A stretch of 64,000 nucleotides of DNA from the NCBI GenBank assembly GCA_950295325.1, contig OX485805.1, positions 48,324,758-48,388,757 of the forward strand, written 5' to 3'. Of this stretch, positions 43,093-64,000 are shown piece after piece; the first letter of the stretch is position 1, and each line of letters begins with the position of its first letter. This stretch comes from Polytrichum commune (taxonomy: Eukaryota; Streptophyta; Polytrichopsida; Polytrichales; Polytrichaceae). The position numbers and the translations under genes are program-made. Below the pieces are notes generated by a model, which saw only the letters and a list, made by a program, of their open reading frames with translations, did no database searches and was not told where the DNA came from.

Positions 43093-45670
43093 ATCTCATC
43101 ACCTAGTTCTTGAAAACTCAAACACTTTATGTTGTAGATTGTATACACTCTTCCATGCAAAATGAAAATCCCAAATTGAATGACACCTTTCTTGCTACCA
43201 TTGGAATACACCTCTCACCCCCCCCCCCCCAAACAAAGTATGTCAAAACTCCCATAAGAATGAAAAGTCATTAATGCAAGTGCACGTCACAAAATTGTCA
43301 TAGATGATTGAAATATGGATGACATCATTGACATTATAAAAGAAAATTCATATGCATGTAGGGGTAAAGCTCTACACCTCACTTCACACAATGATAGTTG
43401 AAGTATGTTAAATTTAGCATATCCCCCTTGGAAGAATACCTCTCCTTATCAAATTCCACAAAGCCCCAACAACAAAACATTTAGAATCTCGACACCAAAA
43501 TTAACACAAAGTAATTCCCATTTTACTTGACATACTCCATGGCTCCCATTTGAATACACCTCTTCTAACCACCCCCCCCACACACATTCTTAGTATCTGA
43601 AAACTCGCATACTTCTGCACACTTATTACTACGTAAGTGCAAGTCACACAAGTTATCCCAAGTGGTGATGAAGTAGATGTCATTAAAAATAAAATTTACT
43701 ATATGAACTAAGTTCCAATTTAAATGATATCATCGTAACCAACATTGTAATACATGTGTAAACTCCCACTTCATAGTAACTTGTCTTAATTACCCATGGA
43801 CTACAAAATTCCCTTAAGTCTAGAAAATTCACAAATGCATGTGAAATTATAATTTTTATGAAAAAACACACAAGACATGTGGAATAATTTATTACCACAC
43901 ATGTGTAAATCCTGTAAGCAGAACAAAAATACAACCCATAGATTTCCATGGTCGAATGCCCGTGGGGGCTCCCAACTGGTGGGCGGAGTCTCCCACGGAT
44001 GAACACCCATGTAGGATCCCAACTGGTGGACGAAATCTTCCACAGGCGAACGCCCATAGGGGAAAGTTAGTATGCGAGCGGAGAGCGGTGAGCAGAGAGC
44101 GGAGAGCGGAGAACTCGATGTGAGACATGAAATGAGAGGAAAAATGCACCTATAACCGCGGGAATGAATGAAAAACATCTAACTATTTTTAGAAACTTTT
44201 AAGGGTTAGGTAGTCTATTACCGTGGAAATAGGCCAACATTTCCCCATTAATAACATTTATAGATTTATGAAACATATAAATATTTTAATAAAATACAAC
44301 ATTAGGGCTTACATCAGTATGATGTCACCAATTCAATATCCAAACACGTGTACTATAGTACATATTATTGTAAATTAAAAACATGTACTATTTGAAGTAA
44401 ACACGAAGGAGGTCTCTTAATAAAATTTCTCCACATACAGTACACCCTCTATAAGTGTTCACCCTTTCTAAATGTTAACTTTCTTCTACACCCCATATAT
44501 TGCACAGTATAACTGTTAAACGTGTTAACTGATAACAAAATGGTACTCCCTTCTTTGTAAATTTGACTATATAAATGTTAACGAATGAAAAACAACCACA
44601 ATATGGATGATAATTACTACACATCCAATTACATTCCTCTCTCTCTAGCCCGTGATTTGAAAACTTGATATTGAACAAAGTTATGATTGAGTTTGCATTA
44701 TTGTGAATGATATTCTATCACAATGACTCTTCACAATTGCTTATATTTATCAATGTTAAGATTTGTATATTGCTCAAAATACTAATTTTATAAATGTTAA
44801 CTGTTAACACCTTTATAAATGTTAACTCTGATTCATTCATGAGGGTTAACATTATAAGATTTAGAAAGATCTGTTGTCAAGTATCGGACTTGTTTTTGGA
44901 GGGGGTTAGACAGATGATAAATTCCATTCGCGAATGCCCACAAGTGGCACATATTCTCCTACGAGTCTGGAAATAAAACTAAACACCTAGCCTACCCAAA
45001 CAAACACAAATACAACCTTATGACCAATAAATTGAATTAAAAAAAAATCATTCCAAGGCAGGAATGCTACGATGTGAGCGGTGAGCGGTCTTTGGATGTG
45101 CAGCCAGGAGAGAAAATTTCTCCAAGACCTAGTATCTGGGTCTCTCCCAAGAATAGATGAGATGGGTTTAGGGATGAGAAAGGCTATTGACCTTTAGAAA
45201 AAGTTATTATAGTTTTGTATATTTTTTGAACATGTAATTGTTATCTATTGCAATTATATGTCCACATTATTGTTTTTGGTTTCATTGCTATTACTATCTA
45301 AAAGAACCAACTTTTTGACTAATGTGGTTTCCACTTTTTTAGGCTCCAGTAGTCTATAAATATTTTATCGGGAATTTCATAATCACTTTGGCACATGATA
45401 TGTATTTCCTTCATGAGGCCATGAACATCAAATTAAATAGTTAAAAAAAATAAAAAATATGACACATATTTATGATTTTGTATAAAGAACAAATAAGAAT
45501 TGACAGCAAAAAAGTCCCGCAACTGGACATACACGAATAACAAATGGAAAAATGCAAGATGTGTGCGAAAGACACCTTAGAGGAAAATGTAATCAAATCC
45601 AGTCAAATCAAATCAAATCAAATGAAAACAACAAAAGACCGAAACGTCCTTCCAAAACTCACGATATGCT
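43093..45670. other. Non-coding stretch with GAGCGG repeats
   Basis: No gene is supported. Two clusters of a GAGCGG/GAGAGCGG motif lie at 44072-44112 and near 45077-45090. A C10 run lies near 43218. 43940-44060 has two partial repeats of CCCAACTGGTGGRCG. An (AATCAAATC)n-like tract lies near 45590-45625, just past the end of the ParB-methyltransferase gene. Confidence 0.5.
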
Positions 45671-48600
45671 CTAATCGCTACTTCCACTATCTGATCTCGA
45701 GGACTCTGAATCTCCTTCTACAGCCTCTGTATCCATAAATACAAGGGCCCTAGGATCACAAGTAGTAGCTCGACTAGGAACATATCTAACGGCACCGGAT
45801 TGAAGCGCTTGTGCTAAGTCCTCAGCATACTCTGGAAGAATATAAGGTTGTATCGGACTGGAGTTCACACGCCACGATGGAATGGACATGGGTACTCTGC
45901 AATTGAAACCCGATAGTGGTTAGAATGAGTACGTGGAGATGCAAACAAAAGCAAAGCTAAGATAAATCGACTAGAAGTAAAAAATGTAAAGTAAGACTTA
46001 CTTACAAGCCCATTTATTGCGTCTTTGTTTTTTGGGGCGCGATTCATCAGCAGATGTAGGTCTGGGACGTTTAGGAGGGCCCATGACAGGTCTTGAATCG
46101 ATATATGGACGGAGAATGGCGTTGAAGATGGGTTCGTCATCCTCAAATGCCACAACATGACGACCAATCTCCTGGCAAGCCTTAATGGTAGCCCCTGAAT
46201 TCAAAGCATCGCGAAGATGTGAGACTCTGTTGAGAATATGAGAGGAACGGAAATTCAGAACTAATTAATGAATGGTTACCTGTTCCTGCCTTCCAGTCGA
46301 GGACTATGTCGCCGGGCTTGGTCAACTGCTCAATGAGGGCCTGCATGAACAAAGGGGCTTTCTCCCTTGGTCCTCTCCATGGGACGTTCCCATTCATGAG
46401 TTGAGTCTCCGCAGTGGTGAGGTTGAACAAGGCATCACTCTTGGTTATATTAACGTCGTCATGTATCACCTCGGATTTCTTCGTCTGGAATGAGAAATTA
46501 GATGTCACGTCGCCACCACGAATAAATACGTGAATCCAGAACCGAATAGACTGCAGTCAACCAAAACATGTGAGAGTAAATAAAATAAAAAGTTATCACT
46601 AAACATAAACAAGGAATGATTACGGTGTAAATACCTTGGAGTCGGGGTCCGTAGGAGAAGCCAACTCGAGGTCATTGATGCCCCACCAGTCCTTGTGCAT
46701 CACAAAGTCGTAAGTCTCAGCCTGATCGAAAATGTCCGCAGTGAGCTTTCGATCATTGTTGTGGATGAGGAGGAGAGCACCATCATTTTGCAAGTAATGA
46801 CTTGCAAATTCGAAGATGGACACCACATATTCGGGATCCCGGGAGTTCCAAGGTGGAACGACTGATGGAGGATTGGATACGGAAGGGACGGGTAGATTCT
46901 CAGGGATGTCGGCAATGATCAAGTCGATCCCAAAGTGCTTCTCATTTTCGCACCGTTCTGGAACTTGGGTTTGGCGGCCTTCTCCCATCTTGAAGAAACC
47001 AGGAAGGAAAGTTAGACTTTATAATATGTAAAAAAAACCTGATGCATCCAAAACGAGTCGAAGCAACGGATTGTACCTTGCGAATGAAGTCTAGAATCTG
47101 AACCCATCTTGGATCGCCACCGTTGTCGGACAACTTCGTATGTGAAGTCATCAACGTCTCCACAGATATGCTGGAGACAAAAACATGGGCGGAATGTGGA
47201 ATTCCACTGGAAGAGGTGCTCGTGGGAAATAGTTTTGCCTTCCTCTGCTCAATGAGACCTCTCGTCATCTCCAATGCACTGACCGAGGAAGGCACGGTCG
47301 TAGAAGAGGGAGCAGTCTCGAGAATGACTTTAGATTGAGAAGCAAGGAGTGCCTGCGACAAGGGAGCGGATGACTCCGTCTGCCCTAGCTCTGATGCTTG
47401 TGATTCTGAACCCAAGGAGACAATGTCCGTCCCTCGACGCAAACGACGCCCTCTCTTGGGCTTCGGTGGTGGTGCAGAGGATTGATCCTGGTGCCCTTCG
47501 TCATCTTCAATAACTTGCGTGGTATCTTCTTCCACCTCCACTCCGCCATCATGTAAGGTCTTCACCTCCGCCTCTGAATCAAAGACAAAACCACGAACAC
47601 AGTCGAGATACCAACATCCTGCATGCAAGTGTGGTTGTTTGTACCTTTTTAACTGCTGGGCAGTATAGATACACTGGTCTGAACCTTTCTGAATCCATGC
47701 AGCAAAGTACTTCGGGAGTGCTTGAACATCGATGGCACCTTTGGGAACTAGCTCCCTCTTGAAGTACCTAAAAAATGACAAATACAATATGTTATAGGAC
47801 TCATTAACGATATAAAGAGAAATGAACATGATTGATATAGCAAGGGAGGTTGAGTTTATATTCATACCGGTATGTAACCCGCCTGACAACCTCTGTCGTT
47901 CTCGGGAATTTGGTGAAATTGGATTTCTTATCGAAAACCTTCTCAGTCCGGGAACCTAGGAATGTAGGGAATGCCTTCTCCCATAATAGAATACGCCAAC
48001 AGTCCACATATGCGCCCGGTTGCATAACATCTGGAAATGCCTTCCAGTTGATAACGAGCTTTTCCGCCTTGCATATGTCCTCGAACTCGTGGATGACGGC
48101 TTCCTCCAACTAGAAGAGAAAATTAAATTGATTAGAGACGAGTATGGATCGAGCCGAATGGAGAATAATTAAATTAATCACAAGAGAGTTTTGGGGTACT
48201 ATACCCCTGCCCAAAATGCTGCCTTGTTCAACCAAGGGTCAAGGTCGGCTTCCTTGAATTCTGGTGGTAGAAATCTATAAGAAAGCCTTGAACTCGGAGA
48301 AGAGTTCCACCACCTCAACCAACGAGCTTTGTATTTGGCATCCACAGCCGCTGGAACTATCTTCTGAAGCTTTTCCAATGTCATCTCTGGTTTAGAGAAT
48401 TCACTGAAATGCCGATTGATCTGCGAGAAGAACAATATAGTAAAAGATAGGTAAATAGTATGATGATGGAAAGAGAATGATGTATCTACAGTATAGGAAG
48501 TTAGAGTCTCACCTCTTCGAGGAAATCGTCACCGTTTTTGGGATTCGCTATAGCCAAGTACTTGGTGAAGTCTTTCTTCGAAATGGCCTGGACCATATTA

Positions 48601-50717
48601 TTTGATGCCTCTGTCATGGCATCCCAAACACCGGTTGCAGTTTGATCCTCCTTTGGGGTTCTCTCAATGTAGGCCCTAGCGGCTTCATCCGAAGCCACTG
48701 CAATCTCCCGCTGTAGAAGGAGAACAATATTTAGAAAAAGAACACAACTTCAAACCCTTTGAGAAAAGAAAGTAATGAAATCAATTCTTGGAAGTAATTC
48801 TTACCCGGTATAGGAACGCAATGAACACTTTTGTTGTCAAGGTAAACCATCGATCTTTAGCCAGTTTGTTCTTCTTGCAGACATCGAACTCTTCTGGACT
48901 GAGGAGATCCTTGAATTCTTCCAACTTCATCACACCGAAAGAGCGGATGCGGTAAAGCTTCGCCGGAAGATTATTCTTTACGTGATCATTTTCAGTAGAC
49001 CTGAACATGGAATTCAAAAATTAAAGAATGAAAAAAAACAATATATGTATCAATACGGTTGGAGAAATAGGATTAGGAAGATACTCACCAGTTGATATCG
49101 TGCATGGCATTAAGAAGTAGGCCCACTTGGCCGCGTGGGTCTAAAACAATGCAATGCACGGAGATGTGCCATTCGGGATCCTTGGCATGATGATTGTTAA
49201 TATGTCTTAACCATGCAGCCAGGCGATGGTTACCTTCCCAGACATAGAACATCTTGCCAGAGAATTGCTTCAAATCAGGGTCTGCTTGAAGCTCGTCTTC
49301 AAAAGATTGATTCGCCCTTTCCCAACATGGGCTCCAATCGGCCTTGACCTCCTCCGTAACATCCGATGACAACTCTTCGTTGTTGTACATAGAAATGTAC
49401 ATGACTCGGTCCCCATCTCGATATCCCTTCACAAACTCCCGCTCTAGATGTTGTATCCCCATTTCACCAACTGGTCTCACTTTAGCCATTGATATCATCC
49501 TACACAAGGGGACAAACAACCGGGACTTCTTCAGGGGTTGAAAACGAACGCTGTTGATAACGTTGATGGAGTCCACCTTGTGCTGTGTTCGATGTTGCAA
49601 TTCGCTATCTACAGCATTCGTCAAGGTTGAAGGGCAAGATGATGTTTGCAACACGTCTTGTGCTTGAATTTCCTGCCAAATGTCATGCAAATTAATACTT
49701 GAACACAATACTGTAGAAAGTGAAAACAAAATAATTAAATCACATAAAAATCAACTCAAAACCTTCTCATTAATAAAATACTATGAGAACAACTCAAACA
49801 TCGTAGTTGGCCCTAAGTATCACTTGCGAGCCGATCTACGTGGAGCACGTGTGTAGTAATTCCCAGACTCTGTACTAGTCCAAAGAAGGCGCTCCCTCCA
49901 AATACGCCTTGTGATTGGGGCAGTACGACGTGGGCATGTAACCGGCGAGGTTTGCTCATAAACCGGGTTGGCTCATAAACCCAAAATCTGCGTACCTGTT
50001 GCCATTTTGCTCAAAACAATCACCCCCGAAATTTACATAAAAAAGGGTGTCGTTTACGGCACCCCCTGGGATGCCCCAGATCCGCGTACCTGTTGCCATT
50101 TTCCCCAAAACAATCACCCCCGAAATTTACATAAAAAAAGGGTGTTGTTTATGGCACCCCCTGGGATGCCCCAGATTTGCGTACTTGTTGCCATTTTGCT
50201 CAAAACAATCACCCCCGAAATTTACATAAAAAAGGGTGTCGTTTACGGCACCCCCTGGGATGCCCCAGATCTGCGTACCTGTTGCCATTTTGCTCAAACC
50301 AATCACCCCCGAAATTTACATAAAAAAGGGTGTCGTTTACGGCACCCCCTGGGATGCCCCAGATCTGCGTACCTGTTGTCATTTTGCTCAAACCAATCAC
50401 CCCCGAAATTTACATAAAAAAAGGGTGTTGTTTATGGCACCCCCTGGGATGCCCCAGATCAGCGTACCTGTTGCCATTTTGCTTAAAACAATCACCCCCG
50501 AAATTTACACAAAAAAGGGTGTCGTTTACGGCACCCCCTGGGATGCCCCAGATCAGCGTACCTGTTGCCATTTTGCTCAAAACATGTACAAATCTAAAGA
50601 AATTCAAAAAAAGAAGGTACAGTATGCATGAAATTCAACAATATTACATCAAAATACCTCTGTTTCTTCTTGAGTAGGGTGAGGATCTTCCATCTCCACG
50701 TTTTGATCCGATGACTC
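45671..50717 (-). CDS. ParB-like domain fused to a beta-class amino-methyltransferase, eleven exons
   Basis: Exons: 50717-50658, 49672-49089, 49000-48805, 48710-48513, 48420-48205, 48109-47868, 47767-47077, 46988-46635, 46484-46280, 46194-46002, 45896-45671. Every intron is GT-AG and all phases agree; the sum is 1055 codons. The likely start is the ATG at 50693 (about 1046 aa), but further 5' exons are possible. N-terminal part: KVRPVGEMGIQHLEREFVKG, then FYVWEGNHRLAAWLRHI at about 49215-49245, the ParB/sulfiredoxin GxHR signature. The middle (exons 3-6) is helical and unrecognised. Exon 7 carries an acidic stretch and a basic PKRGRRLRRG likely nuclear signal. Exons 8-10 form a methyltransferase in beta-class order: LIIADIPENLP at the motif IV position (usually DPPY), then PGDIVLDWKAGTGAT (motif I) and VVAFEDDEPIFNAI (motif II). 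The tail is basic then Ser/Asp-rich. In bacteria such fusions modify DNA. Catalysis is uncertain because motif IV is altered. Confidence 0.85.
49990..50583 (+). repeat. 94-95-bp minisatellite inside the ParB-methyltransferase intron
   Basis: About six and a quarter near-identical head-to-tail units. The phrase CCTGTTGCCATTTTGCTCAA (or a one-base variant) starts at 49995, 50089, 50184, 50278, 50372, 50467 and 50561. Each unit also carries CACCCCCGAAATTTACATAA and GGCACCCCCTGGGATGCCCC, the last of which is palindrome-like (GGCA...TGCC). Because 94 is not a multiple of 3, the long frames over it are by-products. It fills most of the first identified intron. Confidence 0.9.
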
Positions 50718-52099
50718 CTAAATTACAAACAGTAATTAAAAAAAACACATGAGAATACCCCATGCCCCACTCACGTATTTGATATACATGGTAGATTGTG
50801 CAAGCCCTTGCTCTGTTTTCTTGAGTTGAAACACTTAGCAAAGTCATCCTCTTTTTGTAAATTTCTTCTATGTAGCTAAGGTTCTTCACATTTATCTCCG
50901 CACACCAAAGCCACATTTTCTTGGACAGAAGATGCAATGTAATCATGTAACGTACGCTTTTTTTATTTGTAAAAAAAGTCCCAAATTAGTGCACTTTTGA
51001 CAGCTACAGAAGTACTGTCCACTAGAGATTCCCATGCCTTATATGCTTCACTTGAACGTCTCTCTTAGTTCCGAAAGATGCAATTTCCAATTTTCAAAGC
51101 ATTTGTAGTAGGACGAATTAGGACAAATGGTTGTTGGATCTGGGTTTCTCAGTCTAGAAAAATGTTTTCCACAAACCATCAATCACTTTTACAAGTGTCC
51201 AGATGGTTGCAAGTAGCTTCTTCATGATAAAATCTATATTTACATCCTGTAGCAAAAACACTTGTTACTTTGAAAGTCCTTTCTAGGCCCAATAGAAAGT
51301 TGATTCATTAGCACCACACTCAACATCTGAATTAGTGTGACCCAAGTGAAAGGCCTTGCCATCACTGGGTGGCTATTAGAGAGCGTGTCCCTTGACACTT
51401 GGTACAACATGACTATTCATGACAACTATTCTGATTAATATGGCACGGCAACTATTCTGATTAATATGGCCACACTAAAACAAAATTTTTAGAATAGCAT
51501 ACCTCTTCCATGCGAAAACAATTTACAAAAAGAAAAAGAAAACAAGGAATACACATCATGACACAAGGACCCCCGACCACATGCTAGAGTGCAACGGAGA
51601 AGTGGTCATGAAGAAGATTGCTCTGTTATAGGTGTGCACACAACCACCTTCCGTTTGGAGCATCTTATCATTGCTGTCAGTCCAATGTCTCCTGAAAGTG
51701 GCAATGAACCCAACAACCGAGAGGAGATTGTGTTTAACCTCTGCTTCTAGTGTTCCCTTCAACACCCAATCATGTGGACAAAAATGCGCGGGGCCCGTGG
51801 ACAAAGAGGTGATCTGAACTCTGGAGAGACAAAACTGATCACACGATGTACATGCGGTTTGCAAGATCTTGCAAAACGTGAATAGATCCTTGGAAATTTT
51901 GAATGAAAGAATCCACCTTAGCCTTTTGAGGGCCAATCATTTTTTGGTAATAAATCCAAAGAAATAATGAATAGGCCCTGCATAACGTGTCAACCCTAAA
52001 ACACTCGTCGAAAGGATTCAAGGTGAACACTTATGAATAGATTTGATACACTCGCTGAGAAAACAGATGCCCGATCAACTCTCATGAAAACTACAATGC
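50718..52099. other. 5' flank of the ParB-methyltransferase gene
   Basis: Possible additional 5' exons lie on the minus strand at about 50760-50945, where an open frame (KMWLWCAEINVKNLSYIEEI...) ends at a good donor (ATAC/GTGAGT). Its phase does not join to the exon at 50717, whereas another frame ending KKTEQGLAQSTMYIKY at the same donor does. Neither is certain. 50950-52099 has no gene I can support; the short opposite-strand frames near 51.6-52.0 kb look like chance. Confidence 0.4.
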
Positions 52100-52198
52100 C
52101 GAACAAGGTTCCATTGACCCCGGGGGAGGGGGGGTCATCGGAAGTGCTTTCGGAGCAGAAAGCACTTCCTCTCCTTCTCCTATTTCTCGAAACCCTGA
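52100..52198 (+). repeat. Hairpin repeat H, copy 1
   Basis: About 100 bp beginning CCGAACAAGGTTCCATTGAC, followed by a GGGGGAGGGGGGG tract and the perfect hairpin GGAAGTGCTTTC-GGAGCA-GAAAGCACTTCC (52140-52169), then CTATTTCTCGAAACCCTGA. Other copies start at 53313, 53859, 54413 and 56802. No coding capacity. Confidence 0.85.
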
Positions 52199-52289
52199 GG
52201 TGATTCACCGTGGAACAGAAGGGTAAAAGCTCATTTGATTTTGATTTTCGGAGCGAATACAAACTGTGGATGCATGGCCTATCGATCCT

Positions 52290-52500
52290 TTAGTCTTTCG
52301 GAGTCGGTGAAGATACTAGTGATTCTAAATCCAACCGGTTGCATGTTGACAGACATTTTCCGGTTTTGCTGCTTTCATTCAGTTGAGGTAGATTCTATAG
52401 ATTCCTCTAAAATGATAGGTAAATTTCCTGAAGTCTTGAACTTCAGCTGATTATTTCTCAAACTCAACAGTTTCATCTACCTAAACCGTTTCCTCTGCTA
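52290..52500 (+). repeat. Dispersed repeat shared with 4.9-5.2 kb
   Basis: The text TTCTAAATCCAACCGGTTGC, GAGGTAGATTCTATAGATTC and CCTGAAGTCTTGAACTTCAG matches, in the same order and orientation, the region 4900-5060, and partly 54525-54620 and 56698-56800. Non-coding, family unknown. Confidence 0.7.
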
Positions 52501-53312
52501 GCTGTTGAACTGTGTCGGTGCAAAGTCCGTCCAATACTTCCTAGTCACTATATCATGTAGATGACACTCTTACACTCTAAGTAGAAGGGGCTTTGTTCTT
52601 GAATGGAACCAGAGTATTATACCCCTATTATAAAACCTGCATTCAATTATCGATGCTCATTTGAAATCACAGAGCTCGAGCGTCAGCAGCTTTAGAGATG
52701 CTTGCTGATGCTCGAGCTCACCACTGGTCATTGTCAGTCGATCTGAAAAAGCAACGCCTACAATCGATTACACTTAGGATCTCCGTAATGCTGATGGACT
52801 GTGCAGCAGTCATTCTGCAGACTTACATAATCTCAGGTTGTGACCGTTTCAAGGTCGTGCATCACTTACATTGACTGGCACTCAAGTCTGTAGAAGTGAA
52901 GATGCTCTGCGATGTGTTGGAATTTCGATCTAATGCAAAACTTGGCAGCATGTGCAAAAACACGCCATTGAGAGGAACACCATGACACCAAGATAGGTGT
53001 CTAACCTATAAAAGTTTTGGACCTCGCTCGAGCTTTTGTGGTGTTAAGGTGGGCATCGATGGATCAATGCAAGTTTTAGGATGCTGTAATTGCGATTTAA
53101 GTAGACATGATTTTGTCCTTGAAAATTGTAGAACAAATCCCTGTATACGTAAGGATGCAAAAATATCATCTACATCATGCATCAGTCGGAAGAATTGGAC
53201 GGAGTACACACCGATCAATTGAACAGCTAGCAGACATAATTTCTGGACGCAAATGCTAAGCAAACGCGTCTGATAAGTGAACACGAGCATTTCGAAAAGC
53301 AGTGTCATTATT

Positions 53313-54511
53313 GTTCCATCGACCCCGGGGGAGGGGGGGTCCTCGGAAGTGCTTTCGGAGCAGAAAGCACTTCCTCTGCCTCTCCTATTTCTCGAAACCC
53401 TGATGCTTTCATTCAGTTTAGTTAGATTCTATAGATCTGCAAACTAGTGCTCCTATGGACTTCGTCAGAGTAGAAGCAGCCATGACCTATAACGACGACG
53501 CTCTACCAGTGATGACAATCGCCTGGTCTTCAAAAGCAAACATCCTCATTTTTTTGTCATCGAATGCAAGACTTTGAGTCCAATATATCGACTTGTCCGT
53601 GCTACTTTGTTGTAACATCATGCTGGCTCAGTGCAAGTTTCTTAGGCCATTACAAGGGTTGATGTTTTACATCAAAGGTTTCTCTCTTTCTTCCTTGTCT
53701 TCCAGCTCAATAAGGAATACTAACTTACCATAGACTTAAATTTCATCTTCTGTGGCAAGGATGAGAAAATAATATGAAGGATTTTTTGGTTTCAGGTGCT
53801 CATTTGTGGATTTGAACAGATTGCTCAGTCTACTCGCAAGCCTGGTTGGTTCCTAAACCGAACAAGGTTCCATCGACCCCGGGGGAGGGGGGGTCATCGG
53901 AAGTGCTTTCGGAGCAGAAAGCACTTCCTCTCCCTCTCCTATTTCTCGAAACCTTGATGCTTTCATTCAGTTGAGGTAGATTCTATAGATCTGCAAACGA
54001 GCGCTCCTATGGACTTCGTCAGAGTAGAAGCAGCCATGACCTATAACGACGACGCTCTACCAGTGATGACAGTCGCCTGGTCTTCAAAAGCAAACATCCT
54101 CATTTTTTTGTCATCGAATGCAAGACTTTGAATCCAATATATTGACTTGTCCGTGCTACTTTGTTGTAACATCATGCTGGCTCAGTGCAAGTTTCTTAGG
54201 CCATTACAAGGGTTGATGTTTTACATCAAAGGTTTCTCTCTTTCTTCCTTGTCTTCCAGCTCAATAAGGAATACTAATTTACCATAGACTTAAATTTCAT
54301 CTTCTGTGGCAAGGATGAGAAAATAATATGAAGGATTTTTTGGTTTCAGGTGCTCATTTGTGGATTTGAACAGATTGCTCAGTCTACTCGCAAGCCTGGT
54401 TGGTGCCTAAACCGAACAAGGTTCCATCGACCCCGGGGGAGGGGGGGTCATCGGAAGTGCTTTCGGAGCAGAAAGCACTTCCTCTCCCTCTCCTATTTCT
54501 CGAAACCCTGA
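53313..54511 (+). repeat. 554-bp tandem duplication containing hairpin repeat H
   Basis: Unit 1 starts GTTCCATCGACCCCGGGG at 53313, unit 2 at 53867 and a partial third at 54421, giving an exact period of 554 bp. Units 1 and 2 are almost identical throughout (ATGGACTTCGTCAGAGTAGA, TTTTACATCAAAGGTTTCTC and TTTGAACAGATTGCTCAGTC occur in both), so the duplication is recent. Each unit carries the 12-bp-stem hairpin. TTTCAG/GTGCTCATTTGTGGA in each unit looks like an acceptor plus a short open frame (VLICGFEQIAQSTRKPG), possibly a duplicated exon, unproven. Confidence 0.85.
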
Positions 54512-55067
54512 TGCTTTCATTCAGTTGAGGTAGATTCTATAGATTCCTCTAAAATGATAGGTAAATCTCCTGAAGTCTTGAACTTCAGCCGATTATTTCT
54601 CAAACTCAACAGTTTCATCTGCAACTAACCGCCAGTTCCTCCTAGAGTTTTCAAGTCCAACTGGTTGCATGTTGACATCCTCCAGTTGAAATCTAACCTG
54701 CCAAAAAAGTTTCCCGATCACTACTGAAGTACATGTTATATATGGACTCAATGATTCTCCCTGTCCAGGGAGACTAATCTCAATACAGGGGAAGTTAGTT
54801 ACAGATGAACCGGTTGAGTTTGGAGGATACCCGGTTGAAGTTCAAGACATTATGAAAACTAGCGACTGTAAATGGCTTGTCAAAATTTCACTGAGCTCCA
54901 TTATCATTCACGTAGCAGAATAAAAGTAAGCTGTATATCAATGTGGTTTCATGTGGTTTCATGTACGTTTGTGTTAGGATGGCGAATTGCTCTAATATTT
55001 CTTGACCAAACTTGTTGTTTATTCTTGCCATGAATGTTTTTGCTCTAATACATTTTGTGGAAGGCAG
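54512..55067. other. Repeat-derived non-coding stretch
   Basis: Continues the dispersed repeat of 52290-52500, followed by inverted CCGGTTGAAGTTC-type motifs at 54824-54845. Leads into the acceptor of the exon at 55068. Confidence 0.5.
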
Positions 55068-56332
55068 GTTCTCTAATTAGTCATGTGTATAAGGAGAGAT
55101 CTGCACTGGGGGGAGCCAAATTTGATGAGACAGTCAGGCTAGTTTGGTCCATGATGGAGTTCGACATGGCAAGGACTGCACAAACCTTATGTACACTTCT
55201 AGACCAGTTTGAATCTTCCGACCTAGATCAAGTTTCATATTACAAAACTTGGTAAAACAATTAATGATATGTGCATCCATGAATAATTGTGTTTTATCTA
55301 TCTTTGACAAGTGTTTAAACTTAATTTCTTCTGAACCTCTTGGCTTAGCCATTTACTCAATCTAGTCATTTGTGAAGGACCCACAAATGACCATCTTAGA
55401 AATGCTTTTCAGCTCACCTATTTTAAAGGACTTGTTTTGCGCTTTCATGAACTAAATGCAATCTTCTCAGCTGATCATGGGAGGTTTGTTTATGATCAAG
55501 GATTAGTCCTCTCCAAACTCACTTCTCTATGGCACTAAAAAGGAGAATTACATCAAAAAGTGGCAATTTGCATGCAGGGCATTGGTTGAAGAATTCGAGG
55601 ACATTGACAAACTTTCTGCCACTGAAAATGGCCTTTCACTGCTACAACTGATAGAGGTATTACATCTTACCTTCTTTCTTCAATATGCAGCATCATCTAC
55701 TAAGTCCTATTCTGATGTGTCACACGTTTCATTTGCACAATACATATGCAACTACAACCCAAAGTGGGTTCTCTTTAATCCACTCTTTAAATCCTTACTT
55801 AAAAAAATATGACTGCTATATTTGAGTGGTGTTAATTTAAGAACGGACATCAAAAAGATATATGTTTAATAGATATTGGACTACCTGCTCAAGCTTATTA
55901 GCCATTCTAGGCTCAATAGTCAACTTAATTGGGGGGGACCTATTTGACCATTTACTGAGTTTGAGAATTTACACTTTTATGTTCCAAAATATGAGCTCCA
56001 AAAACAAAGAGGTAAATGGCTAAGGACAAGATCTGGGATTGGCAATCATCTTGCACTAAGTTTTGAATAGCTTAACCCTTTTGTCTGTTGGGCATATATT
56101 GAAGCATTTAAAGACTTCTGGATTGCAGAACGAGTCTGCGATGTCTCACATCCCAGATCCCACAGATAGGAGGCAAGGTGAAATTGCGAGGAGCAAAAGA
56201 GTTCGTTCACCCCCAGAATTAAAAAAAAAAGCCTTAAAGCAAAGCATTCGCAGTGGAAGTTCGAGTAGTCGTGCCATCACATATTTAGAATCAGAGGGAA
56301 GTAGTCAACCCTCATTTAGCTTGGGATTTTGA
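55068..56332 (+). CDS. 3' end of an unrecognised gene (three exons)
   Basis: Exons 55068-55251, 55578-55656 and 56129-56332 join with matching phases (2, then 1, then 0) at GT-AG sites and end at a TGA. Encoded text in order: ISHVYKERSALGGAKFDETV, FDMARTAQTLCTLLDQFESS, WALVEEFEDIDKLSATENGL, then a basic-serine tail (RSKRVRSPPELKKKALKQS) ending SSQPSFSLGF. The start of the first listed exon is incomplete, so the 5' part of the gene should lie upstream, where only repeats are seen. I do not recognise the protein. The SKR/KKK-rich tail suggests a nuclear protein. It may be a fragment moved here with other gene pieces. Confidence 0.5.
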
Positions 56333-56689
56333 CACTCAACCTTAAACCCTAAACCCTCATTTAGCATCAATGATTGTGCAGTCAATGGGCTTTTTCAAAC
56401 GCCTTATACAGAGGTAAGTTTGAAAGCAATGATTAAATCATAACAGCACAAGTTCAACTCAGGAATCATCTTATGAAATCTTGTAGAACTAGAGTCAACA
56501 GTTCCCATGTACACTAGTTGGTGATTATTTTGACAATAGGATAGCCCAAGTATGTAACTGTATAGCGGTAGGCCCCGAACTTGAGGTTGTCCACATTATT
56601 TGGGAAGTGTAAGACATCGTGACCAGTGTGAAACTGCCCACCTCACAAATAAGATGTGGATGTATTAAAACAGGGCAGAAAGAGCATGC

Positions 56690-56900
56690 ACTTCTCAGTT
56701 GAGGTAGATTCTATAGATTCCTCTAAAATGATAGGTAAATTTCCTGAAGTCTTGAACTTCAGCCGATTGTTTCTCAAACTCAACAGTTTCATCTACCTAA
56801 ACCGAACAAGGTTCCATCGACCCCGGGGGAAGGGGGGTCCTCGGAAGTGCTTTCGGAGCAGAAAGCACTTCCTCTCCCTCTCCTATTTCTCGAAACTCTG
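56690..56900 (+). repeat. Dispersed repeat plus hairpin repeat H, copy 5
   Basis: 56698-56800 repeats the GAGGTAGATTCTATAGATTC / CTTGAACTTCAG text. 56802-56900 is a copy of repeat H with the same 12-bp-stem hairpin and a slightly altered G-rich tract. It lies between the two gene fragments at 55.1-56.3 and 57.1-58.2 kb. Confidence 0.8.
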
Positions 56901-57130
56901 AGGTGATTCACTGTGGAACAGAAGGGTAAAAGCTCATTTGATTTTGATTTTCGGAGCGAATACAAACTGTGAATGCATGGCCTATCGAATTGAAATTTAG
57001 TATTAACACCAGCATTATATTTATACTTCAAGAGATGAGTTTAATATCACTTGCTGTAGATTATTCTCAAAAGGCAAAGTATTGATGAAGATGGCTTGTA
57101 TTTAATGGGTCACGCTTTCTGTTTGTGCAG

Positions 57131-58170
57131 GTGATCTTTTATGAGCAAGACTGGAATCCACAAGCAGACAAACAGGCATTACAACGTGCTCATCGTATTG
57201 GTCAAAAGTCTCCAGTTTTGGCTATCAATCTCATTACGCCTAACACTATCGAAGAGGTGAGTACTGTTAAAGGCATGATACTGTTAAGTCAACATGGCTT
57301 TTGGTTGGGGGTCGATTGTTTTGCATACAACACCTTCCAGTCGGGGAACTTCAGTGCAGGCTTGGAGGTACATAGGGTGGAGGTTTAAATGAAGAACATT
57401 AAGTATTCAATCATTGAGGATCAAACTCATTTTGGCATTCCAAGAGGTGCTAAATGAGACTGGCCAAATCGAAATAGCTTCCTCTTTGTTCAAATTCAAA
57501 GAATATATCAGAGAATGCAGCATAAGTGGAAGAAAAAAAATAGTGATTTTGTATGCAGGACCACCAAAGGAAAATCACAGGGGACCGACTCCTGATGAAA
57601 AGTCTAATTAAGACAAAGGATAACTCTATTTCTGTAGTCCCTCAAACTGGAATATTGGCAGACTTTGTGAAGCAATTTGTCAAGTTTAAATCCATACCAT
57701 GCTAAAGTCATTTGTCTCTGGGACCTTCAATAGGTGAACTAGTTGTCCAAAATTGACTTGTGAAATAGCCTAAGACTTCTGGTATGTTGGATGCATTCTA
57801 GCCAGCAGATAAAGCAGTATTGGACTCATGGGTTGCAGACTCAAAAGTTAAGGCAGCAACATCACAGGAAACTCGGCGCTCACAGAAATGGCGAGTGTTT
57901 GAATATGTCGAAGATGACAAAAAGAAGGATGATATGAAGAGACAGAAGAAAAAGAAAGCTGAAGACAAGAAACACGCAAAGTGGCTATCAATTGGGTACC
58001 ACTCATTGGCTGTTGATGACCCAACTGACACCACCCTTCGAAGCTATGCTTCAACCGATGATGATGGTGATGGCACAAATATTCACTTTGTAATTGGAGA
58101 CTGCACTCAACCTTCAACGAATTCAGACGAGACATACATCATACTCTCGAGGGGGGCAGAGAAGAGGTAC
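57131..58170 (+). pseudogene. CHR10/ALC1-like SNF2 remodeller fragment
   Basis: Exon 57131-57256 (phase 0 on both sides) encodes SNF2 helicase motifs [28 protein letters not shown] and [12 protein letters not shown] second block, about 57808-58165, encodes KAVLDSWVADSKVKAATSQE, a Lys-rich stretch, KKHAKWLSIGYHSLAVDDP and IHFVIGDCTQPS, which is the linker and start of the C-terminal macro domain of plant CHR10 (CHD1L/ALC1 homologue, a poly-ADP-ribose-linked remodeller). The first helicase lobe, the exon just before motif V, the segment between the blocks and the rest of the macro domain are not found nearby. After TYIILS the frame leaves the family pattern and soon stops. It reads as a gene fragment, not a working copy. 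A possible coiled-coil exon (EKAALEQSKNNELSEL) at 58292-58363 is of unknown origin. Confidence 0.75.
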
Positions 58171-58459
58171 TAGGGTGGGGAGGAAAGGCAAGTCTTTTCA
58201 AGATTATCAGATTGTTTAGTCTAAAGCCTTAGGGGCTCCAAAGCAGGTTCTAAATAGTGCAAATAACTAACTTTGTGTATTGTGGGTGTAGGAAAAAGCT
58301 GCGCTGGAACAGAGCAAGAATAATGAGCTTAGTGAGTTGACGGACCGTGTTGAAATCATAAAGGTTGGTGGTTTACCTAATTGAATTCAACATGGGGAGA
58401 TTTTTGGGCATAACCTAATTGAAAACATGTAACCTATTGGACTTGGAAACACTGTGACC

Positions 58460-59357
58460 TCATATAGTGAATGAAAAGTTAGGGTTTGGGGGAGAAACCT
58501 GGATTGGAGAGGTTTTCTCCTCTTCTCCATCAATCCCCTCTCTATTGCCATCCTCCTTGGAATGATGCTTGCCATCCTCTTCCTCGCCCTCTCCTCCACT
58601 TTCTTCATCTTTATCTTCTTCTTCTTCCTCCTCCTCCTCCTCCTCCTCCCTTAGTTGATATGCCTCATTGTCATCTTTGTCTTCATCTTTTTCCTCCTCA
58701 TCCTCTCCCATATGGCCTTCCTCCACTCTCTCCAATGCCGCCTCATGGATGTTTCCAACTTGCTCCTCTTCAACCACTCCCACGGATCTCCTCATTGATC
58801 TGCGGCATGGCAACATTGGTGGTCGGGGAGAAGTGGTGGTGAGAGGCATCGTGGCACTCCCCCTTCCATTAGCCTTCTTTGCCATCGAATGAGGCCGTTC
58901 GGAATGAGAACCCGCCCTTGCCTTCCCAACACCCCATTCCAAACCCTAAATTCAATAACCAATGAGATTCGACTTCCACTCTAGGCAATGACTAGGAAAC
59001 TAACTTTCAATAGAGATTAGGTCAAATAATTACTTCTAGTGTGGGTTGGGACTCCACTTCTTCTTCAATGTCTTGGATATCAAGCCTCGTTTCACTAATA
59101 ATTTCCACATCCTCATGTGCATAGATGTCGGGTGGTTCCGTATCAATCCCATCTTTGAGGAGGTCCACGTCTTCAAATGTTAGAGTTCGCGTGGTTGCAC
59201 ATATGCCGTGTTTTGTAATTCTAGTCAAATTCCTCCCCATCCTCGACCGCTCTAATGCTTTCCGCGTCGAATACTTGGAGGATCCTTTCCGTCTGCGTTT
59301 CTTCAAGGGAGTTGAAAACTTTGAATGTGCGGACATATCTTCATTGAACATTTGCAC
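58460..59357 (-). CDS. Putative two-exon gene for a very acidic protein
   Basis: Exon 1 59357-59034 and exon 2 58945-58460 join in phase 0 at GT-AG to give 269 codons. The N-terminus is basic (LKKRRRKGSSKYSTRKALER), followed by an acidic middle (DIQDIEEEVESQ). Exon 2 has a Ser/Pro/Arg patch and a long Glu/Asp run encoded by a CTC/TCC triplet repeat near 58620-58655. No known domain. It lies 0.8 kb from the divergently transcribed MULE-like gene, so the two may share a promoter region or have travelled together. Low-complexity repeats can open frames by chance, so this is tentative. Confidence 0.45.
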
Positions 59358-60149
59358 AAATCAAATTGGAAATTAATTTGCAAAACAAATAAAAATGGAA
59401 AGTCCCAAGTTTGATTGTTGTTTTGCTTCAAGAATGATTGTCCCTCCTCCACATCCATGTATATTTAATGTCATCGTATAGCATAACAACAACAACAACA
59501 ACATGCCGTAACTATTAAAATCTTAGGGTTTCACATTTCCATACGTCATATCTTATTATTGGCCGTTACACATTATGAATATGTGTGTAGATACATTGTG
59601 TGTGGTGTCGTTCTTATTTACAGTATATAACACCCTTGCATTATTTCAAATCCTACGTGAGTTGTCATTGCAATATTTTCAAATTTTTTTAATGTATGCC
59701 ATGTGAATTCTGATAATGAAACCACTCATATTATTCAAATTGTAAAGATGTATTGTCATTGTTGTTTGTATCCATATTATTTGACGTCTATGTTATGTAT
59801 CGTTTCCATTCTTCATTTTTGTGAGTATGCATAGAATTTGTTTATCTTTCGATGACATCTCTTCGTGCAGGATGTCTACCATGACTTGTCAAGTAGAATG
59901 TCTACCATGACTTGGCTGATATAATTTGGGATATCGTGACAGCCTTACCGCTCTCTTCCAGACTCCTTGGTTTTAGGGTGTTGGACATTTAAAAATATTT
60001 TTCATGCTTTCCTCCATAGTTCATCCTTCGTTTGTATCATGTTTATCATCGTTGTCTTTGGCAATGCAGTTCTAATAAATAGGTATCCTAGAATGTTGAG
60101 GGTTCTTTTCCATATTTCCATCTTCGCTCGAAGGCTCATTTCCCTCATC
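59358..60149. other. Intergenic region between divergent genes
   Basis: Probable two-way promoter region for the acidic-protein gene (minus) and the MULE-like gene (plus). Contains an (AAC)n microsatellite near 59486-59502 and a short direct repeat (GTCTACCATGACTTG at 59872 and 59900). No TATA box can be singled out. Confidence 0.4.
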
Positions 60150-63100
60150 ATGGCTCACCTTCCTGCTATCGGAGATTTGGGGTTGGTTGTCCTCTATGTA
60201 CATGGAGTGGGAGTCCCACTTACCTTTCAGAAGGATGAGGATGGTCTAGCAATTGTTACGGCACAACGTCTAAGTCTTCGGTTCGGCTTCAGAGAGGACA
60301 CTATTATTATTGACGAGGATGTTTTTGATGTTGTCACTTCAGAACTTACACACACACTTGGTCGGGTTTCACAGCGAGATGAGAATAATAACTTGTTTTG
60401 GAGTCTTCATCCAGGTCGTTACCGTGTGTTTGGCCTCACTGATTCTCAGATGGCTGCGTCCACAGAGATCCTCACTCCTCGTAATTCCTCTACGTGCACT
60501 ATTCAAACTCCTCTGCCACGCGATGTGAAGGTCAAGATCGAGCCCGGTCTCGAGACGCCTATTGTGGAGAACGTTAGAGTTCCGTCTGTAATTACACTTT
60601 CTTCAGATGAAGAGGGCAGTCCCACCAAACCCCCTCCTCAGATTGTACCTGGTGTGAACGCTCCGAAAGTATATCTTTTGTCGCTAGATACTGTTAGCAT
60701 TTTACCATTATTAAAACAACTTGCTACAATGCCGGGGAAAAAAAATGTTCTTAAAAAAATAGACTACTCGGTGATTAGACACGAGAGGGTAGAGTATCTT
60801 CCTGCTTTGTTCGATGGTCCCGTCATATTTGAGTTGCCTCCTGCTGGTCACACGGCCGCACGATCGCAGGCCAAGTCTATGCAGGGAATGGACAAACGTT
60901 ACGACGGCCATGTGTGGACGAAGACCATCACCACCAACATCACAAACGACTTTAGTTTGTCATTCCGTTCTTCCTCCTGCGTTGGACACCTGCGTTGCAA
61001 CAATAAAGAGTGCGAATATCTGATCCGCCGACCTCGTATTTTTGAAGTCAACGAGACAGAGTTTGAGGGTTGTACCCTCCAAGCCTTTGTAGTGGATCAA
61101 GCACCCCCAACTGAGTCTACGCTTGTTTGCAAGGTTTGCAAAGAACCCCCGTCATGTATTGCTACATGTGGAGCTAAGATTTATTATGTAGCTGGCAAAA
61201 GCAATCATACAAGAGCGTGTATCCACCTTGGAAATCACGATCACCCAGTCAAGGTGGGCGACTACAGAGACACTAAGGCTGAGATCAGTGGCCTAATTGA
61301 AGAACAGATCGAGAAGACTCCTCAGGCTACCAAGAGTGCAGTTGTGCTGGAGGCGAGCAAGGTTCTAATTGGCAGCTATCTCCTTCAACCCGATGACGCG
61401 CCACCAAAGAAACTTTCTCTAGAGGAACTTATTCCTGTTTTTGACCGATGCAAGGACATGGCTTCCCCGAACATCCGCAACAAGGTCATGAGCTTCCGTT
61501 TCCTCAGAAGGTATGGTGTCATGGACTCTATCACCAAACTCCGTGGAATCAGTTTATGGTCATTTGTTCAGGAGAACAAATTTCCAGGGCAAGGGACTGA
61601 TCTTGACAAGGTTTTTGTTTTCAAAATGTCGGAAGTCGGGCCTGGTAGTGGTGTAGACTTGGTGAAGCGTATGCAGCCCGGCGAAGATTTGGAGAATGCT
61701 TGGATAATGTTCGACCATGTCAAACGTGTAAGACAATGGACCACAATGGCATGTCACGTGTATGACTCCACATATTGTCGTGTCATGACCATTGCGAGTT
61801 GTGACATGCAATCGGAGGACTGTGATGCCCAGATTGTTTTTTGGAAGAATCTCAATGCTGTGATGGAGAGGAATGGTGTTGTCGATACCAACTTCAAGGG
61901 TTTCATGGCCGATAGCGCCCAAGCCAATTGGAATGCAGTTCGGGTCATATATGGCAACGGGAAGAAGGAGGACCGCATGGATGACCGGGAGAGAACCTGT
62001 CAATTTCACTGGACCCAATCTATGGTTAAGTATACTGAGAAGTACATTCCCGAAGAACTCTGGGAGCAGCACAAGAAGATGTGCCACCAGTATAGGACGG
62101 CGAGGACCATGGACGAAGCGGAGAGTATGTACCACGGGCTACGTGCATGGTGGGTGTCGGCCGGGATAGTGACAGAGAATGCCCTAAACAAACTAGAGCT
62201 CTGGCTTGCATTTTGGCACTTCCGTTATCGCCAATGGGGAGGCTTCATGACTGGGGTATGTTTTTCCAATACACTTTATATTGTTTTCTTTCTTTTCACA
62301 TTACTCCAATCTGAAAGAACTCTTCTCTAATCTCTACTTACTTGCACTATGTACTTGCAGAAATTTTCAGAAGAAGAACTAGCAGAAATGCCTTCATGTA
62401 ATCTAGCTGAAACAATACACAACAAGTGGCTTCAAGCGTCTGGAAACAGCGGCGGTGACCTCTACGTTGCTACAGTTGACGACTTCGTTCGAGGCTTCTT
62501 ACAAGTTGTCAATTACTACCAGTTCCTGAAAGGTGACGTCGGCGGTACAGGCCCTACGAAGAAAGAGCTCAAACTAAGGATGGCAGAGCGCAGGGCAAAG
62601 CAAACAGGTAATCCTTTAGTCCTTGAAGACCCCATGTTGGACATGCCTGGAGCAGAAGAATTTTGTACCCGTGTTCCTTGCATGGCTGGAGAAGAGGTAT
62701 TCGGGTCCACGAAGCGGAAGGCAGATCTACCTCTTGGAGCTGAAGAGGAGTCTCATCGGCCTGACAAAGTTAACTTCTCACATCCAAGAGGTTCAGGTCG
62801 TGCCGTGAGGGCTCGTCCTGTGCAGATGCCCATCATTCTTGAAGATACCGAAGATGATACTGACGTCCAAGAAATTCATCCTCAGCCTGAGCCTGATAGC
62901 ATCCCTGTGTCCCCGTCCAACGAGGGGGGGATCCGTCATGTCAGTGTTGTCGAAGAGACAAAGGTTAACGTCAAAGAGTGGCACATATCAAGACTTCCCA
63001 AGACCTCGGCGAAGTGCTGTTGGGCCCAGAGAGCTGTCACGAAGAAGAAGTGTATTGAGAGAATTGTGAGGGGTGCCAATTCGACCGCCGCGCCTACCTA

Positions 63101-63848
63101 CACCGGAGTTTGGACTAACATACGCAGGAATTTATCAGAGAGGACAGAATTCTTCTTTTGTTCCGATGACATCGACCGCTGTGTGAAGGGCACAAGGCGC
63201 AAATGGGTTGCTAAGCACTCAGCAGACCATGAAATGCCGCCGATACCAGACGTTTGGCCGGTGAAGCTAGGCACAAACCTCAAGCCTACCGAAATTCTTG
63301 CACTTGAAGCAGCTGGATTCCAACTCCCACTTAAGAAGCCGGTCTCTCCAAGACGATTGTTCTCTTCTGCCCCACCGCCTGCAAATCTTAGCGCGGTGTC
63401 CATTCCTGCAGAAGCAGACCGCTATCCTAGCAAGAGAGACGGCAAGATGGTCAAACGCACTGCCACTCGCCCAAATCCTGCGCAGCGACTCTCCATGGCC
63501 TCCTCCGACTCTCTGAAAACTTACATCCGTTCCATCACTATGATACCTCATCCAGGACATGGCTGCATCATCGGGCTAGATTCGGGTGTTTCTCCTGCCA
63601 TCACACAGTATCAGGTCACCATCAGTTCTTTCGTGGGTTGCACTTGCCCTGCATTCAAGAAGACGATGACTAAGTTCAGAGGGAGGACCCAATTCTCTTA
63701 TTGCAAGCATGTGTACTTCATTCTTTTGAAGGTTTGCCACCGTGATCCCGAGGCAGAGCTTTTCATTCACGCGCCTACCTTTAGTTTCAACGAGGTCAAG
63801 CTAGTCCTAGAAAGCGGACTCTTGACTCACCCTTTGGCGAACAACTAG
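60150..63848 (+). CDS. MULE-like transposase-derived protein with SWIM finger, two exons
   Basis: Exons 60150-62255 and 62361-63848 flank a 105-bp GTATGT...TTGCAG intron in phase 0, giving 1197 residues. The start at 60150 (MAHLPAIGDLG) is preferred because the in-frame upstream extension to 59967 is hydrophobic and unlike the rest. Residues ~225-370 hold a Cys/His-rich zinc region (SSCVGHLRCNNKECEYL, a CxxC, and TRACIHLGNHDHP) like the WRKY-GCM1 fingers of MULE transposases. The core includes ACHVYDSTYCRVMTIASCD, FMADSAQANWNAVR and CQFHWTQSM (the family D and CxxH positions). Near residue 1130 CTCPAF...CKHVYFIL is a SWIM zinc finger. No stops or frameshifts, so it is possibly active or domesticated. 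Terminal inverted repeats were not found in the window. Confidence 0.85.
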
Positions 63849-63957
63849 GAGCCAACCTACAAACAGCCTAGATTATTTTCAATGGACGGTGGCCACTCCA
63901 AATTCCCTTGTCATTACATGTACTGAGTCAGCAAGACAATATTCATATTGTTTTCTC

Positions 63958-63963
63958 AATAAA
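63958..63963 (+). promoter_or_regulatory. Polyadenylation signal
   Basis: AATAAA lies 110 bp after the stop codon of the MULE-like gene, followed by a T-rich stretch (GTGTTTTGTCATTTAG). Position and sequence fit the 3' end of its mRNA. Confidence 0.6.
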
Positions 63964-64000
63964 AAGTGTTTTGTCATTTAGACTATATAGACTATGCACG

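Follow-up and report, generated by a model that had tools for sequence, protein, structure and literature searches.

VANDAL transposons are Mutator-like elements (MULEs), for which target duplications of 9-11 bp are expected. Passages of a study in Arabidopsis (PMC10398659) describe how such a transposon encodes an accessory protein, VANC, which binds tandem repeats in the noncoding regions of its own VANDAL elements and removes silencing marks, and how these repeats differ between related elements, contracting and expanding. A precedent of another kind (PMC5890265) is provided by dinoflagellate and charophyte retrotransposons that carry genes for C5-cytosine DNA methyltransferases (DNMTs), enzymes that were shown to methylate DNA. 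Here, we describe a two-gene DNA transposon in the moss Polytrichum commune that invites comparison with both. It lies in the window (the whole stretch of 64,000 nucleotides that was analysed, on the contig called C3 below) and encodes, besides a transposase, an accessory protein with a methyltransferase fold at its C-terminus.

As in VANDAL elements, the accessory protein is encoded by the transposon itself, which carries noncoding tandem repeats that differ between relatives and vary in size. Unlike VANC, which those passages present with no mention of a methyltransferase domain, the moss protein has a C-terminal beta-class methyltransferase fold and is associated with candidate palindromes of 16-24 bp, the two proteins being likened by description and not by sequence. 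As in the retrotransposons, a mobile element encodes its own DNA-methyltransferase-type protein, but this one is a DNA transposon, and the fold is of the N6/N4 class with a non-canonical catalytic motif. The reading that we slightly favour, by analogy, is that this is the accessory gene of a MULE-like plant transposon whose product would be a self-recognition protein with VANC-like anti-silencing activity and a methyltransferase domain that has been retooled or is dead. If this is correct, the list of mobile elements with DNA-modification genes gains a DNA transposon that encodes a methyltransferase-fold protein of the N6/N4 class. The transposon as such, leaving the role of its protein aside, we regard as close to certain. 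No published description of such an element was found in the open-licence PMC literature (a weak negative), and a simple word search of the available text of a paper on Mutator evolution (PMC6446971) returned none of the words methyltransferase, ParB, moss or Marchantia.

A two-gene DNA transposon

The element spans window positions 44059 to 65382 (~21.3 kb, the last 1382 bases lying beyond the window end), limits that were set by comparison with a copy on contig C7 that is 99.4-99.6% identical throughout. The window copy is bordered at both ends by the 10-bp target duplication AACGCCCATA and the C7 copy by a different one, CTATTTTGAT, and at its ends the element has terminal inverted repeats that are imperfect, agreeing at 25 of 35 bases, and contain GAGCGGA heptads. 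A second element of ~16.1 kb, C3:1120015-1136124, is bordered on both sides by the 10-bp TTCTTTTGAT, has a terminal-repeat core in common with the window element and contains an accessory gene that carries one stop and encodes a protein ~41% identical. The duplication is thus 10 bp in all three elements of which both ends were read. Main features of the window element, the exons of the accessory gene being given further below, are:

44049-44058, no strand: left copy of the target-site duplication AACGCCCATA; the right copy comes directly after 65382, outside the window
44059-64000 (continues to 65382), no strand: DNA transposon, from the C7 comparison and the imperfect terminal inverted repeats
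44059-44112, plus strand: left terminus with GAGCGGA heptad array, from the comparison of termini
57089-58170, plus strand: CHD1L(ALC1)-like chromatin-remodeller gene pieces, probably captured from the host
59940-63848, plus strand: transposase gene, two long open stretches in one frame (59940-62330 and 62331-63848), probably with an intron between; SWIM-like finger near the end

An original prediction, made from the letters alone, had taken the accessory gene for a transferred or transposon-borne DNA-modification gene. That it is transposon-borne is borne out by the target duplications, terminal repeats, partner transposase and dispersed copies. The same prediction had considered the gene long resident because of its ten introns, a claim that is not upheld: these introns move with a DNA transposon, and there are two ~99.5%-identical copies with separate target duplications. 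The prediction did not extend to the copy number, the partner transposase, the palindromic repeats or the non-canonical character of motif IV in the family.

The accessory gene and the transposase are divergent in the window element, each towards an opposite end. The same holds in C3:1120015-1136124, where the transposase is 47-68% identical to the window's depending on the segment and the 3' end of the accessory gene faces a terminus. Both genes are widely dispersed in the genome searched (407.8 Mb in 64 contigs, of which C1-C7 together make up ~406 Mb). The window protein gave 145 exon matches on C1-C7 (best 44 of 3957 candidates), some 97-98% identical and others ~53%. At least 150 places were found with each of four further queries: the N-terminal exon (best 150 of 1287 candidates), the motif IV exon of another subfamily (best 150 of 994 candidates), the window transposase core (61566-62249) and the transposase core of C3:1.12. 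Among 150 listed accessory-gene places, 91 lie at most 30 kb from a listed transposase, which is upstream and divergent in 88 cases (within 15 kb in 71 of these); in 1000 random placements, this upstream-divergent geometry within 30 kb arose 1.0 times on average and at most 6 times, the baseline being uniform and ignoring any clustering of transposons. The other 59 have no transposase nearby among the C3:1.12-type matches listed. In the window subfamily, five of six copies have a window-type transposase within 13 kb among the matches listed, the copy at C1:37.75 being the one with none listed nearby.

A third locus, C2:6.456-6.47 Mb, has both genes and a window-type left terminus at the one end fetched. 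Its transposase core (C2:6469418) is 97% identical to the window's and its accessory gene (C2:6457613-6461344), which is free of stops, only 36%. Judging from these identities, the accessory gene may evolve at a much higher rate, or elements may swap it by module exchange.

The possibility that the accessory gene is host cargo, like the CHD1L-like fragment, was rejected because the gene and the transposase repeatedly occur together in subfamilies that have diverged. The fragment itself consists of pieces of a CHD1L/ALC1-like gene with SNF2 and macro domains. The macro-side piece is shared by the C7 copy (100%) and the one at C3:54.8 Mb (97%), and its likely host original is at C4:364243-364590 (89%). 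A separate observation concerns equal-score transposase pairs in opposite orientation, ~25-45 kb apart (C1:20219339/20263954, C6:35289270/35313879 and C4:43525900/43566028), which look as if they arose by inverted-block duplication.

The accessory protein and its altered catalytic motif

The accessory gene runs from 50717 down to 45671 of the minus strand, and the eleven exons with matching phases that had been predicted hold: all introns are GT-AG, and the summed exon length of 3165 nt is divisible by 3. The open frame, starting at an ATG near 50693, has 1046 codons, and spliced alignment with the 1046-residue protein as query recovered an identical exon set. Intron positions are mostly common to copies that are ~40% identical in protein, mostly with equal phase, and an intact third subfamily (36% identity) likewise keeps most of them, mostly in the same phase, which argues that the gene model is not a product of chance. 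The exons, together with the repeat array that occupies intron 1, are:

50658-50717, minus strand: exon 1 as modelled, start codon near 50693; spliced alignment
49986-50584, no strand: tandem array of 94-bp units (6.4 copies) within intron 1; at 50045-50536 it contains six 20-bp palindromes, all imperfect, that read GGGTGTCGTTTACGGCACCC or a variant
49089-49672, minus strand: exon 2, conserved N-terminal region, likened to ParB by the motif EGNHRLAAW only
48805-49000, minus strand: exon 3, from the gene model
48513-48710, minus strand: exon 4, from the gene model
48205-48420, minus strand: exon 5, from the gene model
47868-48109, minus strand: exon 6, from the gene model
47077-47767, minus strand: exon 7, middle region, for which no family matches; basic stretch KPKRGRRLRR
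46635-46988, minus strand: exon 8, methyltransferase motif IV position, with DIPEN where relatives have DPPY or DIPY
46280-46484, minus strand: exon 9, methyltransferase, start of the S-adenosylmethionine (SAM) motif I (LDWKAGTG)
46002-46194, minus strand: exon 10, methyltransferase, remainder of motif I, then motif II (AFEDD)
45671-45896, minus strand: exon 11, C-terminal tail and stop

The original prediction read this protein as a fusion between a ParB/Srx-like domain and a beta-class amino-methyltransferase, with motifs that are indeed where it had placed them: EGNHRLAAW from residue 158, in exon 2, then DIPEN at 748, LDWKAG at 901 and AFEDDE at 923, which gives the methyltransferase order IV, I, II. 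Family profiles support the methyltransferase half of the fusion and not the ParB half. The Pfam family N6_N4_Mtase (PF01555) matches residues 876-933 (E=1.7e-8, 35.1 bits for a cut-off of 26.7) and is the sole Pfam match over its cut-off, a match to DUF6037 having been dropped (E 0.019, 15.4 bits, cut-off 28.8). Other family copies match PF01555 more weakly, all below the cut-off (24.5, 13.3 and 24.8 bits, and one with no match). Further matches are to PHROG 3008 (E=1.8e-12) and to the solved enzymes DpnA (E=1.1e-5) and CcrM (E=0.018); the Pfam, PHROG and DpnA matches cover mainly the part with motifs I and II, and that to CcrM mainly motif I. Profile-profile comparison with three beta-class methyltransferases gave 98.7% probability over 211 columns, swapped-domain controls staying below 0.1%. 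Finally, a tblastn search matched phage adenine methyltransferases, those of Lactococcus phage AM9 (E=1e-4) and Streptococcus phage CHPC1091 (E=5e-3), which are 25% and 26% identical by blastp in alignments that run through motif IV. The protein is like DpnA, CcrM and the two phage enzymes in its IV-I-II motif order and whole-domain alignment, but departs from beta-class methyltransferases by a Y to E change in the catalytic motif, a W in motif I and ~700 further residues without a family match.

In beta-class methyltransferases, the aromatic residue of motif IV stacks on the flipped target base. The window protein reads IIADIPENL where the CHPC1091 enzyme has IIADIPYNL, and an aromatic residue as in the canonical [DNS]PP[YFW] is found in none of 30 copies that were hand-picked, so as to span identities, from 150 listed motif IV exon matches. 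The residue is E in 28 of them (one of which lacks the motif IV proline too), K in one and G in one. The motif reads DIPE in the window, DIPE, DVPE, DLPE or DMPE in other copies and DLPEN in the third subfamily. Motif I, D-W-x-x-G-x-G, is kept in 19 of the 27 readable copies, without the phenylalanine of FxGxG, and motif II, E-x-D, in 24 of 27 (L029, L030 and L042, which gave no motif I reading, being excluded from both counts); variants of motif I include DINAGVG in the intact third subfamily and DAYASTG in L015.

The ratio of nonsynonymous to synonymous change (dN/dS) between the window gene and its copy at C2:10.76, leaving out codons 301-410, which are disrupted in the latter, is 0.18 for the methyltransferase domain (six nonsynonymous and nine synonymous changes), 0.35 for the N-terminal region, 0.51 for the middle and 0.6 for the tail. 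In this one pair, the one-sided P for the methyltransferase domain is 0.002-0.004, assuming a nonsynonymous-site share of 0.75-0.78; the window and C7 copies, with a ratio of 0.84 on eight changes, say little. Because D-x-P-E is seen across subfamilies, and the domain is constrained in the pair tested, the altered motif is older than the subfamily split and has been kept, rather than reflecting recent decay of a single copy.

As for the N-terminal region, neither a ParB nor a sulfiredoxin match was found in Pfam, NCBIfam, PHROGs or a PDB profile search, in which the best match was unrelated (E 0.4), and hhalign to a profile built from just three bacterial ParB domains, a weak test, gave 0.1%. 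The region is conserved, with 48-58% identity to the window protein in an alignment of four sequences, all four of which have EGNHR; the motif is KGNHR in the C2:10.76 and C4:41.5 copies and DGNHC in the third subfamily. To call the protein ParB-like is plausible as a statement of motif resemblance only, on the strength of EGNHR and the order of elements. A single-sequence AlphaFold prediction of exon 2 gave no usable model (mean predicted local distance difference test score, pLDDT, 38.4).

The four places hit by a genome-wide ParB_N search are confined to three small contigs of bacterial appearance (C10, C12 and C23). These contigs (L055-L057, 20-61 kb) carry bacterial-looking ParB genes, with ParB-methyltransferase fusions keeping DPPY on C10 and C12, and are probably contaminants; the methyltransferase of the C10 fusion looks, by eye, as if it contained an intein-like insert. 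The fusion on C12 (L055) is like the moss protein in having a C-terminal methyltransferase and in a likeness around motif I (GATLRAC versus GATIKAC), but its N-terminal part has no detectable similarity and it keeps DPPY.

Palindromic arrays beside the accessory gene

Of the ten stretches scanned, seven have repeats with multi-copy, subfamily-specific palindromes 5' of the accessory gene. The 94-bp array of the window (6.4 units) has 10.4 units in the C7 copy, a difference in size between elements that are ~99.5% identical. In the C3:1.13 subfamily, arrays of 96-bp and 127-bp units 5' of the gene carry GAGGCCTCGGATCCGAGGCCTC, and palindromes with the core TCGGATCCGA number 31, 57 and 67 in three elements or element parts, being located between the two genes in the complete element. 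The C2:6.45 locus has yet another core, CTGTCGGATCCGACAG, found in 13 palindromes between gene and transposase, and L018 has six of CACCCTCTCGGATCCGAGAGGGTG upstream of the gene. Intron 1 of the C2:10.76 copy has a single instance of the perfect form of the window's 20-bp palindrome, GGGTGCCGTTAACGGCACCC.

The 22-mer GAGGCCTCGGATCCGAGGCCTC has 1903 places genome-wide versus none for a reversed control, and among 50 places listed, 49 are at most 9 kb from a listed transposase or accessory-gene copy. The window-type 20-mer has 16 places. Five gene copies account for 15 of them, all no more than 1.3 kb upstream of exon 2, and the sixteenth is 5.7 kb from a listed transposase. The window element contains, in addition, interspersed repeats of ~91-190 bp (52099-56988), which are 95-98% identical to each other and distinct from the 94-bp array.

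Possible roles of the accessory protein

In the VANC-like reading, the accessory protein would enter the nucleus and form a dimer that binds palindromes within the repeats 5' of its own gene, through which it would recognise its own element subfamily. The bound protein would then promote expression or transposition against host silencing, the methyltransferase domain serving as a module that binds SAM or bases, or performing an altered chemistry, rather than acting as a classical N6-adenine/N4-cytosine methylase. Protein and candidate site would then vary jointly across several subfamilies, which would make protein-DNA recognition in the conflict of transposons with host silencing testable by sequence. 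The conserved D-x-P-E poses, in turn, a biochemical question: dead, or new chemistry? A more far-reaching version, which we put forward tentatively from motifs and repeats and regard as rather improbable, is a self-recognition code in which the methyltransferase-fold protein of each subfamily would read its own palindromic arrays in a parS-like manner, D-x-P-E would catalyse a new amino-methylation or sense a base modification, and each element would mark or unmask none but its own kind.

Several points weigh against the VANC-like reading. To begin with, the label 'MULE-like' derives from the 10-bp duplication, which falls within the MULE range in the three elements, and from weak motifs, with no profile match. 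The SWIM zinc finger of the transposase is sub-threshold (E=0.003, 17.5 bits, cut-off 19.6), and a D..AQA..C..H pattern in common with MULEs of the same genome was read by eye. The MULE transposase profile PF10551 has no significant match in transposases of the family, its 142 listed genome matches missing the three looked for (window, C7 and C3:1.12), hhalign of the transposase to MULEs of the same genome gives a P of only 0.17-0.6, and single-sequence AlphaFold of the transposase core gave no usable model (mean pLDDT 42.6). The palindromes, too, are uneven, since among the ten stretches scanned L015 has no comparable array, C2:10.76 has single palindrome sites only and the five palindromes of L017 (GTTTGGGTCGATCGACCCAAAC, 885-1048, 36-bp spacing) are not at the gene's 5' side, and they could instead have a structural role or be sites for the transposase or some host factor. 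The uniform baseline used for the gene pairing counts here as well. Lastly, whole-gene dN/dS is only 0.47-0.54 in three C3:1.13-subfamily pairs and many copies carry stops, which suggests that much of the family is decaying.

Other explanations place the protein differently. It might be a cofactor of the transposase, with no role in silencing, that binds the internal palindromes for complex assembly or target choice. The recurrent two-gene arrangement, with genes towards opposite element ends, speaks for this, but the palindromes are internal and outside the terminal repeats, and the unequal divergence at C2:6.47 (36% for the accessory protein, 97% for the transposase) fits a tight complex poorly, which leaves us thinking it unlikely. 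We would rate a shade lower an active self-marking enzyme, methylating N6-adenine or N4-cytosine in its own element (the arrays, for example) by way of the unusual D-x-P-E, and thereby excluding host C5 methylation or marking transposition substrates. The whole-domain alignment to beta-class enzymes, the SAM motif retained in most readable copies, the lowest dN/dS of the pair tested, the motif IV stretch that is alike across subfamilies and the published precedent of retrotransposon-encoded C5 DNMTs that methylate DNA (PMC5890265) are all in its favour. What it has to contend with is the absence of the target-stacking aromatic from every sampled copy, and a motif I that reads D-W-x-x-G-x-G instead of the canonical D-P-F-x-G-S-G, a form seen in a phage enzyme. 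That the gene is a resident ParB-methyltransferase fusion acquired from bacteria or phages, unrelated to any mobile element, is highly improbable, the resemblance of its methyltransferase domain to phage and bacterial enzymes notwithstanding; the dispersed places, target duplications, terminal repeats and partner transposase contradict it for the window copy.

Two more N6_N4_Mtase matches in this genome, C1:9662150-9662797 and C4:44111740-44111898, are in 577-codon open frames and are candidate resident plant amino-methyltransferases.

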